Virus record (IMG/VR): IMGVR_UViG_3300004192_000001 | Coordinates: 1 to 39,826 of that record | Origin: a virus | DNA: 39,826 nt | Reading direction: 5' to 3' (one strand) | In this document: positions 25,552 through 34,310 of the stretch, piece by piece | How positions within the stretch are numbered: position 1 is the stretch's first letter | Layout of the letters: each line of letters opens with the position of its first letter | The notes under the pieces: generated by a model | Database searches by the model: none | The model's input: the letters and a program-made list of their open reading frames with translations, nothing else | What the model was told of the DNA's origin: nothing | Position numbers and translations under genes: made by a program

Positions 25552-26553
25552 ATGGCCCGCAATCTTCACGCCGAATGCACCGCCCGCATCCTCGCCAAGC
25601 TGAAAGCTGGCGTCGCGCCGTGGCGTCAGTCCTGGAGCAGCAAAGGGACCGGGGCCATGCCCCGCAACGCCGCGACGGGCCGCGCCTATTCCGGGATCAA
25701 CGTGCCGCTGCTGTGGTGCGAGCAGCAGGATCGCGGCTTCGCCTCGGCCGGCTGGCTGACGTTCAAGCAGGCCCTGGAAGCCGGCGGCTCAGTCCGCAAG
25801 GGCGAGAAGGGCAGCCAGGTCATCTTCGTCAGCACGATCGAGCGCGAGGACGAGGAAACCGGCAAGCTGCGCCGCATCCCCTTCCTCAAGGCCTACACCG
25901 TGTTCAACGTCGAGCAGTGCGACGGCCTGCCGGCCTCGATGTCGCCGGCGGCCGAGCCGATCAACCCGCATCGCCGTGACGAGCTCGCCGAGGAGTTCCT
26001 GGCCGCGACTGGCGCGCGGATCCGCCACGGCGAAGGCCGCGCCTACTGGCATCGGGTCCAGGACATCATCAACCTGCCCATCTTCGCCAGCTTCGTCTCG
26101 GCCGATGCCTATTACGGCACCGCCTTCCATGAGCTCGCGCACTGGACGGGCGCGGAACACCGCCTGAACCGCACCAAGGGCAAGCGCTTCGGCGATCAGG
26201 AATACACCTACGAGGAGCTCGTCGCCGAGCTCGCCGCCGCCTTCCTCTCGGCCGAGTTCGGCTATGACAACGACGACGACGCGGCGTCCTACCTCGATGG
26301 CTGGATCAAGTTCCTGACGGACCATGAGACGGCGTTCATGGCCGCCGCCAGCGACGCCAGCAAGGCGGTTGCCTATCTCCGCGAGATCGCCCTGGTCGAG
26401 CAGCCAATCGCCCTGGTCGAAGTGTCCCCGCGTCTAGACGCAGCCATTCAGGAGGTGCAGGAGCGCCGCTTCCGTCGCCGGCCCGCACAGTCCTTCGATA
26501 CCTCGGCGCTGCCCCTGTTCGGCGACCAGCGCCACCAGCTGGAACTGTTCTGA
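25552..26553 (+). CDS. ardC: ArdC-type antirestriction protein (ssDNA-binding domain plus zincin)
   Basis: The 333-residue protein has the two-part ArdC/TraC architecture. The N-terminal part (residues 1-125: AKLKAGVAPWRQSWSS, ATGRAYSGINVPLLW, GGSVRKGEKGSQVIF) is the ssDNA-binding domain. The C-terminal part (about 140-300) is a metallopeptidase-like domain with HELAHWTG, in which His193, Glu194 and His197 form the HExxH site, and YTYEELVAELAAAF, which likely supplies the third ligand. ArdC proteins protect incoming DNA from host restriction. It is first in a short rightward unit next to the presumed origin, so it could be made early. The 12-bp palindrome GCGTCTAGACGC occurs within its 3' part. 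Confidence 0.9.
   Translation: MARNLHAECTARILAKLKAGVAPWRQSWSSKGTGAMPRNAATGRAYSGINVPLLWCEQQDRGFASAGWLTFKQALEAGGSVRKGEKGSQVIFVSTIEREDEETGKLRRIPFLKAYTVFNVEQCDGLPASMSPAAEPINPHRRDELAEEFLAATGARIRHGEGRAYWHRVQDIINLPIFASFVSADAYYGTAFHELAHWTGAEHRLNRTKGKRFGDQEYTYEELVAELAAAFLSAEFGYDNDDDAASYLDGWIKFLTDHETAFMAAASDASKAVAYLREIALVEQPIALVEVSPRLDAAIQEVQERRFRRRPAQSFDTSALPLFGDQRHQLELF
26430..26441. repeat. 12-bp palindrome GCGTCTAGACGC, copy 2
   Basis: Identical to the copies at 9348, 27481 and 36656. It lies near the 3' end of ardC, encoding RLDA on the plus strand. Copy 1 encodes RLDA too but on the minus strand of an unrelated gene. Confidence 0.85.
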
Positions 26554-29232: not shown

Positions 29233-29517
29233 CTAATGCTTCTTCCGAGGCCAGGCCCCGGTCAGGCCTTCGCTCTGGAGCCCGGCCGAGATGAAATCGG
29301 CCGCGAGGTTCGTCAGGTGCTCCGTCGAGAGCCGCGCCGTGGCGAAGACGCGGCCGGCGCGGTCCATGAAAAGCATGCGCGGCTGGCCGCAGCAGCCGCA
29401 CACCGTCATCTGGACCGAGCTGGCGGTGATCACGCCGCCGAACTCGCGATCGCGCGAGATCTGGTCGAGCAAGGTCGTGGTCTCGAACTTGCCGGTTTCC
29501 TCCTGGGCGATCCCCAT
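29233..29517 (-). CDS. small protein with Cys-x-Cys-Cys motif
   Basis: I chose the ATG at 29517 (MGIAQEETGKFETTTLLDQ, 94 residues), directly after the stop of the Tad2-like gene. The middle part contains TVCGCCGQPRMLFMDRAGRV, which may bind zinc. The end is helical (LTNLAADFISAGLQSEGL). Its place next to the Tad2-like protein raises the possibility of a further anti-defence role, but I have no family to support that. Confidence 0.6.
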   Translation of the reverse strand: MGIAQEETGKFETTTLLDQISRDREFGGVITASSVQMTVCGCCGQPRMLFMDRAGRVFATARLSTEHLTNLAADFISAGLQSEGLTGAWPRKKH

Positions 29518-29521
29518 GACC

Positions 29522-30025
29522 TCAGCACCCCGCCGGAGCGAGGCCGACGACCCAGTCATCGGCGAGCATGTCGGTTTGCGAGGCCGCCCAGGGCACGACC
29601 TCGCCTTGCGCCGTCTTCATGTCGATATGGGCGTGGTAATCGATCGGCGTTCCCTCGGGATAGATGCCGAGGAGCGGCGCGTGGTTCACCGTGAAGCGGG
29701 AACCGGGGACCAGGAACAGGAACATGCCCTTCCCGTTCCAGCCCCTGCGAGAAACGCGATGGCCCATCTTGAGGGCCTCGATGGCGAGCCCGAAGCTCAG
29801 GCCATCCGCCGGACGGTAAGCGGCGTCCGCCTGGGCCTTGGGAGACCAGGAGATGTAACCCTGGTGGCGCGGATCGTTCGGCTTCCCGCCGTCCGTATAC
29901 TCGACCAGGTAGCCGAGATCCGCGCCGTCTTCGTTGGCCGGCAGCGTCCAGCCCCGATAGTCGTTATATTCCTGCCGGCTCATCGGCCGCAGCTTCACCA
30001 GCTTCGTCCCGATATAGGTTCCCAT
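29522..30025 (-). CDS. Tad2-like (DUF2829) anti-Thoeris protein with N-terminal extra domain
   Basis: The 167-residue protein has two domains. Residues 1 to about 71 (YIGTKLVKLRPMSRQEYNDYRG, LGYLVEYTDGGKPN, GYISWSPK) form a small domain often found fused to DUF2829. Residues about 77-160 match DUF2829 closely: FGLAIEALKMGHRVSRRGWNG, FLFLVPGSRF, IDYHAHIDMKTAQGEVVPW and ASQTDMLADDW. DUF2829 is the Tad2 family, which blocks Thoeris defence by sequestering the cyclic ADP-ribose signal made by ThsB. Not all DUF2829 members have been tested, so activity here is inferred. The gene follows the helicase in the early operon, suiting expression soon after infection or induction. Confidence 0.85.
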   Translation of the reverse strand: MGTYIGTKLVKLRPMSRQEYNDYRGWTLPANEDGADLGYLVEYTDGGKPNDPRHQGYISWSPKAQADAAYRPADGLSFGLAIEALKMGHRVSRRGWNGKGMFLFLVPGSRFTVNHAPLLGIYPEGTPIDYHAHIDMKTAQGEVVPWAASQTDMLADDWVVGLAPAGC

Positions 30026-30026
30026 C

Positions 30027-32129
30027 TCACTCCTCCTCCATCCGCAGGAAGATTTTCGCCGGCAGGGACCATCCCCGTCCGATCCCGAGCTTCCTGGTGT
30101 TGATCTTGCGGCCGAGCTGGTGGCCGTCCGGGCCGCGCGCCGTGCACAGGCGCTGCATGGCCTGCTGCCAGCCGGAGAGCGCCGCGCCGGGCTTCGTGCC
30201 CCAGGGCGAGCCGTCGAGCAGATGGGCGATGCCGGCTGATTGATTGGGCAGCGTCACCCAGGCATCATCCTTGAGGCCCTCGACGAAGACACCATGGGCA
30301 TGGAGCGCGGCGGCGTAGCTGTGCGGCGTCGCGCCCTCTGCGCTGAGCTCCACCATCCCGGCCGCGCCGGCGACAAGCGCGCCGATCGTCATCTGGTTGC
30401 CACCCCGGAAGGCCACGACCGTCTTCGTGATCAGCCAGTTTAGGAACTGCTGCGAGGTGGTTTCGTCCTTCGGCTGGTGGCTCTTGTCGAAGGGCGCGCA
30501 GTTCAGGCCGATGTCGTCGCCCTGGATCTCGTCATGTCGAACCATGTCGGCCATGGCCAGCAGGCCGCCGAGCTGCTCGCCGCCGCGCCCGTCATGGCCG
30601 AGCTCGGCGAGCGCGATCGCGTAGCTTTCCAGCGTCGCGTCCCAGCGCTCCCAATTGTCCAGGATGCGCCGTTGCAGCATCGTGCCGAACGCGGCCCAGC
30701 GCGCCGCCTCGATCTTCGGCTTCTTCGATCCCTTGGGCAGCGGCGCGAGCGGCAGGATGGTGATGCGCGTCAGGTCCTGGCCGAACAGCGGCGGGATAAC
30801 GATCGAGGAGAGCAGGAACGAGGACCTGGCCGTGAAGCCGCGCCATTTCTTCGGGTCGTTCGATCCGCGCAGGATGTTGCCGCCGGAGCTCGACTGGCGG
30901 ACGAGCTCCACCATGCCTTTCATCTTCTGGCTGTTCGGATCGGCCTCGGCTTCGTCGATGCCGGCGGCCTTCGACGAGTAGCCCACGCTCTGGTAGATGC
31001 CGGCCGCCGTGGCGTCGGACGATGTCACCAGGAGCGCGCCCATCACGGCCGCGATGAGCTTCTGCAGGGTGGACTTGCCGGTCGCGGCCTCTCCGGTGAG
31101 CCAGATCATCGGCCGCCAGTCGAGCGCGCCGCCGACCAGGGCGGAGCAGATCCAGCCGAGCAGGAGGATGGACGAGATGCGGTGCTTCGTGCCGTTGAAC
31201 GGGACATAGCTGCCCGCCTCGGGGTTGAACTCGAATTCACCAGCCCAATTCCAGCTGTCGAGCAGGTCCAGGAAGGCGTCGAGTTCCTGGAGGAAGTGGC
31301 GCTTCTGCCGGCGCGCCTCCTCATCGTCCTCCGAGATTTCGAAGGGCTTCGGCAGCGGCGCGTCGCCGGGATAGACGTGCTCGCCGATGAAGCCGGGCTT
31401 TTGCCAGCGTGCCCCGTCAAAGACCTGGTCGCCGCCGTGGAGGATCAGCTCGCCCTTGGTCCCGCGCCAGGCGCCGACGCCGCGCAGGCGTGAGGCGGGG
31501 TCGAACGGGCCGCGCTTCCCGCAAGCGTCAATCAGGCTGTCGGCCGTGCGCGCCGCGTCCCAGTTCGTCTGTTCGTGGGTCTGTTCCTTGAACTTGGGCA
31601 CGAAGCCCCACAGCCAATCGATCCGGCCGGCAAAGAGCCCGCGCAGCGCCTCGGCCGAGTGGCTGTCCATCACGCGGAACTGGCGATTGACCGAGAGATA
31701 GAAATGCAAGCCGTCATTCTCGCCGAGCGGCGTGACCGGGCAGTCCTTCGGCAGCGGCTTGATCGGGTTTTTCTTGAGCTTGTATTTGGCCGGTTCGTCT
31801 TCGTCGCCGGCGGGCGGCACGAAGGGCGGCGCGCCACCGTCATCACCGCCCCCGCCGGCCGGTGCGGGCTCAGGCTCGGGCGGTCCGTAGATCAGGTCTT
31901 CGACCTCCTCCAGGGTCCAGCGCGGCGTGCAGGCGCGGCCGACTGCGAGCGCCAGCTTCATCTTGCCGCGCGCGAAGGCGCTGCGGATCGCTTCGGCGTC
32001 TTTCTCCCGTTCGGCCTGCGCCTTCCCGTTGGCCTCGCGCTGCTTCACCGCCTGCTCGGCCTGGTCGAAGGCATCGGCCATCGGCGCGAGGAAGGGCGCG
32101 AGGGGCTGCATGGGGGTCGGCTCGCTCAT
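30027..32129 (-). CDS. replicative helicase / primase-helicase-type ATPase
   Basis: The 700-residue protein is probably the replicative helicase. An N-terminal charged and Pro/Gly-rich part (1-125) leads to the ATPase core: Walker A GEAATGKST (346-354) within MIWLTGEAATGKSTLQK, and a likely Walker B GIDEAEAD (390-397). ARSSFLLSSIVIPPLF lies further on, where DUF927-like or superfamily 3-like phage helicases have a sensor region. It lies in the same operon as a Toprim primase that lacks a helicase domain, so the two may act as a pair. No DNA polymerase gene is present. The start overlaps the preceding stop by ATGA. Confidence 0.8.
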   Translation of the reverse strand: MSEPTPMQPLAPFLAPMADAFDQAEQAVKQREANGKAQAEREKDAEAIRSAFARGKMKLALAVGRACTPRWTLEEVEDLIYGPPEPEPAPAGGGGDDGGAPPFVPPAGDEDEPAKYKLKKNPIKPLPKDCPVTPLGENDGLHFYLSVNRQFRVMDSHSAEALRGLFAGRIDWLWGFVPKFKEQTHEQTNWDAARTADSLIDACGKRGPFDPASRLRGVGAWRGTKGELILHGGDQVFDGARWQKPGFIGEHVYPGDAPLPKPFEISEDDEEARRQKRHFLQELDAFLDLLDSWNWAGEFEFNPEAGSYVPFNGTKHRISSILLLGWICSALVGGALDWRPMIWLTGEAATGKSTLQKLIAAVMGALLVTSSDATAAGIYQSVGYSSKAAGIDEAEADPNSQKMKGMVELVRQSSSGGNILRGSNDPKKWRGFTARSSFLLSSIVIPPLFGQDLTRITILPLAPLPKGSKKPKIEAARWAAFGTMLQRRILDNWERWDATLESYAIALAELGHDGRGGEQLGGLLAMADMVRHDEIQGDDIGLNCAPFDKSHQPKDETTSQQFLNWLITKTVVAFRGGNQMTIGALVAGAAGMVELSAEGATPHSYAAALHAHGVFVEGLKDDAWVTLPNQSAGIAHLLDGSPWGTKPGAALSGWQQAMQRLCTARGPDGHQLGRKINTRKLGIGRGWSLPAKIFLRMEEE

Positions 32130-32415: not shown

Positions 32416-32419
<4 letters not shown>
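32126..32419 (-). CDS. small Cys-containing early protein
   Basis: The 97-residue protein (MTGLPKPALSMMPPAMRAKHR) has CGMKWTDGFCEASLAPDCRCQ, with four Cys that might bind zinc, followed by a helical C terminus. It starts in an ATGA overlap with the Gp37/Gp68-type gene and ends in one with the helicase gene. I recognise no family. Confidence 0.6.
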
Positions 32420-33230
<811 letters not shown>

Positions 33231-33231
<1 letters not shown>

Positions 33232-34310
33232 CAGGCGACGCCCCTCTGCTCGGCCTGGCGCTTGAGCGCGACCAGCCAGTCGTTGAAATCCTTGATGCCC
33301 TCGGGCGGGCGGATGATCTGGAAGGGGATGCCGCGCTCCTCGAGACGCGCGCAGGCGCGCGCGAAGGCGCGGATCGCGTCCGGCTTCGTGTCGTTGTCGG
33401 CGATCAAGAACAGGCCTCCGATCTGGGGCGGCAGGACGATATGGCCGAGGTTGTCGACGGAGACGGCGGCGAGCACGCGCAGGGCCGGCTTGATCAGCGC
33501 GGCCGACCAGCCGTTCTCGCAGCCTTCCGAGACGCCGATCCACTCGCCCTCGGGCGCGTTCTTCAGCGGCTTGCCGGAGGCTCCGCGGTTGAGCGGGATA
33601 TGTCCGCCCCGGAACTCGCCCCAGCTCATCTTCGCATCGACGAGCGCGGCCTTGGTCACGCGCCCGTCAGGGTGACCCTGCAACCAGGTTCGGTGAACCG
33701 CGAGCTGCTGGCCATTCTCGGCATGGTTGATCGGCAGCAGCATCGCCGGCAGCTCCACGCCGCCGGCCTCGCGGTTCCAGACATGGGCATGGAAGCGCGG
33801 CGCGCGCGGCGGCTGCGGCAGCTGTGACAGGTCGATCGCGCGGCCGAGCAGGTAGCGCTCCACCATCGAGCCGGGCCAGAGATCGCCGGCGAGATAGAGC
33901 CCCTTGGCCTTCTTCCGCGTCTTCTCGGCATCGGAGAGCCAGCGCGCCTCGGCCTCCTCGCGCGCCTTCTTCGCCTTCCATTCCTGGCGGCGCAGCTCCT
34001 CGGCCGTCAGCGAGCCTAGGCCGAGCCATTTCAACGCCTCGGGTATGGCGGCGCGCACATCGCCGTCGCAGCGCCCGGCCGCGATCAGGGTGATGATGTC
34101 GCCTTTTGCGTTGCCTGCGAAATCCTTCCACCACCCGGCCTTGTCGCCTTCACGGCGGATCGACAGGCTTTCGCCCGGCGAGCCATGGATGTCCCCCATC
34201 ACCCATTCCCGCCCCTTGATACGGGCATTGGGAAAAAGCTGCGGCACCAGCGTATCGATGCGCTCGATCAGCTTGGCCTTAATCAGGTCGATGGAGACGG
34301 CGTGGCTCAT
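33231..34310 (-). CDS. Toprim-domain DNA primase
   Basis: The 359-residue protein begins with a primase-like part (GWWKDFAGNAKGDIITLIAA at 59-78). It carries a charged helical linker (EELRRQEWKAKKAREEAEAR) and ends in a Toprim domain: GVSEGCENGWSAAL (Glu262), LFLIADND (300-307), KDFNDWL (340-346). No classical Cys zinc-binding module is visible at the N terminus. It would synthesise RNA primers during phage replication, paired with the helicase encoded 1.1 kb downstream. The start overlaps the upstream stop by ATGA. Confidence 0.87.

Follow-up and report, generated by a model that had tools for sequence, protein, structure and literature searches.

Sponges have so far been described as separate single-domain families. 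Within the Tad2 family, which acts against Thoeris, the characterised proteins consist of one domain; binding of cyclic dinucleotides is ascribed to a long insertion (review, PMC12043709), and 3'3'-cGAMP is not a ligand of SPO1 Tad2 (PMC11722364). The family PF13876 (Phage_gp49_66) corresponds to the anti-CBASS sponge Acb4 (anti-CBASS 4; PMC11722364), and phage proteins with the RyR domain PF02026 degrade or sequester cADPR signals (PMC13232231). Phages and conjugative elements are known to encode polyvalent proteins, in which several anti-defence domains share one polypeptide (Iyer et al. 2017, PMC5512222), and this principle applies to the proteins described below; the polyvalent proteins, however, are large, injected and peptidase/ArdC-N based, and that paper does not contain the terms RyR, gp49 or DUF2829.

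The window, that is, the whole stretch of 39,826 nucleotides that was analysed, is a complete virus record. It encodes a protein in which a Tad2-like domain is preceded by a second domain, here called the Y-domain. Whereas the characterised Tad2 proteins have a single domain, the window protein thus adds 72 N-terminal residues.

The gene and its setting in the virus record

The first-pass annotation had proposed an open reading frame at 29522..30025, giving no strand. The reading frame is real and lies on the minus strand, with an ATG start codon, 167 codons for amino acids and a ribosome-binding site graded strong (GGAGGAGGAG at 30039-30030). The TGA of the upstream gene occupies 30029-30027, and the ATG of the Y-Tad2 gene follows immediately. 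The features of the locus are as follows.

29522..30025, minus strand: coding sequence of the Y-domain + Tad2 protein, 167 aa (ORF list, Pfam, PHROG)
29810..30025, minus strand: Y-domain, residues 1-72, beta-alpha-beta-beta-alpha (AlphaFold, conserved columns)
29546..29800, minus strand: Tad2-like domain, residues 76-160, with the motifs RRGWNGKGMF and PWAASQTDMLADDW (Pfam PF11195, fold)
30030..30039, minus strand: ribosome-binding site GGAGGAGGAG, directly 5' of the Y-Tad2 ATG (read in the sequence)
30027..32129, minus strand: upstream gene for a P-loop protein (GEAATGKST) of 700 aa (motif recognised by eye)
33231..34310, minus strand: Toprim primase gene of the same-strand cluster (Pfam PF13362, PF23639)
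29233..29517, minus strand: small downstream open reading frame with a likely ATG start at 29517 (ORF list, sequence reading)

An early operon of a temperate podovirus had been suggested as the setting of the gene, and the gene content agrees with this, as the gene belongs to a replication/early cluster that includes the primase. The designation as a temperate podovirus is reasonable because an integrase is encoded in the window alongside a T7-like portal/head-tail adaptor, tail proteins and an internal virion protein that includes an endolysin domain. The 700-aa P-loop protein encoded 5' of Y-Tad2 gave no match in Pfam; judged by its motif, it is probably the phage replication helicase. A gene of the DUF5131 (phage Gp37/Gp68-type) family at 32416-33543 (minus strand), the real start of which is probably internal, clusters on the same strand with the primase and Y-Tad2 genes. 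Elsewhere in the window, an ArdC-type antirestriction protein (ArdcN + MPTase-PolyVal) encoded at 25552-26553 (plus strand) is a second likely anti-defence gene.

The Tad2 domain and the Y-domain

The assignment of the C-terminal ~85 residues to Tad2/DUF2829 is borne out by both profile and fold. The Pfam family PF11195 (Tad2-like, formerly DUF2829) matches residues 77-160 with an E-value of 1.6e-25 and a score of 89.9 bits (cut-off, 25). An AlphaFold model of the full protein, computed with 67 relatives, reached a pLDDT of 91.4. Superposition on known Tad2 structures gave Z of 10-12 for the C-terminal domain, whereas unrelated entries scored about 4 or lower. The best match (VIA Z) was ModTad2-hisADPR (9eib) at 11.7, followed by SptTad2 (8wjd) at 11.6, 8v3e at 11.3 and 8smf at 10.5. 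Loss of the pocket residues had been named as an outcome that would speak against the assignment; at the level of motifs, in alignments to solved Tad2 chains, both the GWNGKGM loop and the W..S..D.LA.DW motif (beta4-alpha3) are kept. The C-terminal 85 residues are therefore alike SPO1 Tad2, ModTad2, SptTad2 and HgmTad2 in profile, fold and motifs.

In length, the domain resembles SPO1 Tad2 and ModTad2: the matched region comprises 84 residues here, compared to 83-84 in these two proteins, 95 in SptTad2 and 101 in HgmTad2. Judged by this matched-region length, the long insertion between the central strands that marks the cyclic dinucleotide-binding HgmTad2/SptTad2 subgroup is absent from the window protein. 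In view of the short domain, the tie between cyclic dinucleotide binding and the long insertion, and the failure of SPO1 Tad2 to bind 3'3'-cGAMP, an ADP-ribose-type signal would be a likelier ligand than cyclic dinucleotides.

The separate N-terminal domain of ~70 residues that had been proposed is recovered in the full-length model, and it folds with a pLDDT of 96.7 when modelled as an isolated piece. It has the motif YIGTK..YN..RGW..P..E...GYLVEY.DGG..N....GYISWSPK..A..AY; G38, W60, P62, Y43, Y57 and Y70 are conserved columns. For these ~72 residues, no sequence relative was found in Pfam, NCBIfam or the PDB. When the model was compared to PDB structures, the best entries were chromodomains at weak scores: Rhino (4quf) gave Z 3.1 with 2.7 A over 44 residues, the CBX family gave Z 2.4-3.0, and the Foldseek E-values were above 2. 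A chromodomain-like resemblance of the model at Z ~3 is not treated as homology. Solo Y proteins of ~73 aa are present in several phages.

The Y-domain and its partners in other phages

The additional domain is no peculiarity of this phage: Y+Tad2 is an ordinary and widespread architecture. PHROG 872 covers residues 1-160, i.e., both domains (E 3.9e-58), and tblastn with the window protein matched 385 phage records, 90 of them over at least 80% of its length, so that the arrangement is not a chance reading frame. These relatives include phage N4 gp49, Kapi1, IME10 and Vibrio phages. In a scan of viral contigs limited to 600 candidates, at least 594 relatives were confirmed; a scan of genomes gave 176, and 194 distinct Y+Tad2 reading frames were collected in the survey.

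Escherichia phage N4, a member of the Schitoviridae and thus of another family than the window phage, shares the full-length order of Y followed by Tad2 in gp49 (47% identity over 95%). In its record (EF056009, locus L012), the gene labelled gp49 encodes Y+Tad2, and PF13876, Pfam's 'N4 Gp49' family, matches the gene labelled gp48 directly before it; gp48 also matches Acb4 9e4w with an E-value of 9e-4. N4 therefore carries adjacent Acb4-family and Tad2-family genes, whereas no Acb4 gene was found in the window: PF13876 is absent from the window protein in Pfam, and no open reading frame of the window matches a local Acb4 profile.

The interest lies in the promiscuity of the Y-domain across signal blockers rather than in Y+Tad2 as such. 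Queries with the Y-domain only gave 128 unique reading frames, of which 101 also contain Tad2, Acb4 or the Acb2/Tad1 hairpin, 18 contain crAss001_48 only, four have other partners and five have Y alone (one of the five being cut by a contig end); these proportions favour Tad2 because the scans started from the window's own Y-domain. The Y-domain is mostly N-terminal in the fusions, and Acb4, Tad2 and RyR each also occur without it. Acb4 is fused before or after relatives of the Y-domain and is a frequent neighbouring gene; of 29 fusion proteins selected for a Pfam check, 11 were confirmed to have PF13876, as were all 33 neighbouring genes tested. The Acb2/Tad1 hairpin (PF24729) is joined to Y in two loci (L297 and L407), where it scores just over the Pfam cut-off. 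Through a Foldseek match in viral models, Yersinia phage TG1 gp208 was found to consist of Y (41 bits) and RyR (PF02026), the domain of RyDEP and other phage RyR proteins, which the window protein lacks. Robust Y+RyR fusions come from one T4-like lineage, and the other cases score weakly.

Several other domains accompany the Y-domain. crAss001_48 (PF21825), a probable helical hairpin of ~60 residues, is its second commonest partner (L103, L134, L139, L161, L005, L043, L099 and others) and may be considered a candidate signal blocker. An unnamed 'DYAWAWHCNIAM' domain is fused or adjacent to Y/Tad2 proteins in L002, L111 and L114, as is an unnamed 'HLPxxLQxVSKP' domain in L004, L005, L065, L188 and L239. 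The latter, a Vibrio partner, had been considered as Acb2-like, an idea that was dropped for want of Pfam or Acb2 support.

Several blockers can share one polypeptide. A single 418-aa protein (L064:2998-4251) contains Y, Tad2, Acb4 (PF13876) and crAss001_48, with all three Pfam models over the cut-off, and is by its domain content a candidate dual blocker of Thoeris and CBASS. Acb4 and RyR are joined in this order in L359, L345, L324, L330, L353 and L346 and in reverse in L350; L377 has RyR, then Acb4, with fragments of Y. Pfam confirmed these Acb4/RyR fusions for L359, L345, L324, L353, L350 and L377. An insertion of RyR within the Y-domain of L377 is not claimed, since the E-value for the first half of Y is 0.59. 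Acb4+Tad2 without a Y-domain is found in Psychrobacter phenylpyruvicus (L232:5743-6273).

In the same proteins, pairwise identity averages 62% for the Y-domain and 48% for Tad2 (56% without its insert). The similarities of the two domains across pairs are uncorrelated (rho 0.01, for loci picked by overall similarity and hence biased), as would be expected with module exchange. On the tree of Y-domains, 39 partner changes were counted (minimum 7, shuffled mean 56); how many fusions arose independently is uncertain because this tree, built on 71 columns with few supported branches, is poorly resolved. Acb4 neighbours were found for 25 of 132 Y+Tad2 genes and for one of 23 genes with Tad2 alone, a difference that is not significant (p 0.13). 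ThsB-TIR genes, counted in 10 of 30 genomes carrying relatives and in one of 14 controls with no matched background, were not used as evidence.

No report of the Y-domain module was found in the open papers searched, which cover the literature in part, so that an earlier description elsewhere is possible. Term searches of Iyer et al. 2022 and of the RyDEP and Acb4 papers gave no mention of the Y fusions.

Possible roles of the Y-domain

Collectively, we consider it rather probable that the Tad2 domain sequesters an ADP-ribose signal made by TIR proteins and that the Y-domain is a portable accessory anti-defence module, most likely with a binding activity of its own. The gene would then encode a two-domain counter-defence protein. 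Its Tad2 domain would assemble like known Tad2, a homotetramer in which the protomers share the ligand pockets, and sequester a gcADPR- or His-ADPR-type signal, as opposed to a cyclic dinucleotide, whereby the Thoeris effector of the host would stay off. The Y-domain, a self-folding and strongly conserved module that phages join to Tad2, Acb4, the Acb2/Tad1 hairpin or RyR, would most likely add a second binding activity, directed at another signal or at a host or phage partner, and thereby widen or direct the sponge. Such an active role, rather than that of a passive linker, is favoured by the existence of solo Y proteins and by the range of four blockers to which Y is fused. That the extra domain contributes a second anti-defence activity had been suggested from the window alone, next to a changed ligand range or oligomer state; the fusions to Acb4, the Acb2/Tad1 hairpin and RyR lend this part of the earlier proposal indirect support, by guilt by association, and an identical pattern would be expected of a domain that serves solubility, stability or assembly. 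A bolder form of the proposal is offered tentatively: the Y-domain could be a hitherto unnoticed anti-defence domain that binds a ligand of its own, be it a nucleotide immune signal or part of a signalling defence system, and that is shuffled with Tad2, Acb4, the Acb2/Tad1 hairpin, RyR and crAss001_48 into polyvalent blockers, so that one polypeptide might defeat both Thoeris and CBASS.

It is rather unlikely that the Y-domain is purely structural, stabilising, solubilising or oligomerising the joined sponge while binding neither signal nor partner. As the sponges are obligate oligomers (tetramers or hexamers; PMC12043709, PMC11722364), one general assembly module could be useful to each of these families, and the N-terminal location in most fusions is in keeping with this; yet the domain also exists as ~73-aa solo proteins in several phages and is more conserved than Tad2 itself, and Acb4, Tad2 and RyR each also occur without it. 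It appears doubtful that the Y-domain is a chromo/SH3-like adaptor which, by attaching to nucleic acid, a peptide or a defence protein of the host, recruits the sponge to the source of the signal. The highly conserved aromatic residues fit such a function, but chromodomains, the sole resemblance in the PDB (4quf, Z 3.1; CBX family, Z 2.4-3.0), lie within the chance range at Z ~3 and Foldseek E >2. That the Tad2-like domain itself serves another function than that of an anti-Thoeris sponge seems improbable. In phage records, some relatives bear the label 'anti-CRISPR protein', the deposited name of HgmTad2 is AcrIIA7, and no functional test of any relative with a Y-domain was found in the literature searched. 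However, the structures in the AcrIIA7 entries 8kbj and 8kbk contain bound cADPR and cGG, from which it could be deduced that the AcrIIA7 label and the sponge activity belong to one family, and the fold and motifs of the window protein match those of proteins solved with gcADPR and His-ADPR.

Returning to the accessory-module reading, the role of the Y-domain can be addressed in a standard system, since phage N4 infects E. coli K-12 and carries Y+Tad2. The Y fusions tie Tad2, Acb4, the Acb2/Tad1 hairpin and RyR into one modular set, in which Y and crAss001_48 are recurrent companions. These two domains become testable anti-defence candidates, the fusions suggest dual anti-Thoeris/anti-CBASS proteins, and fusion to the Y-domain may serve as a search handle for further signal blockers.
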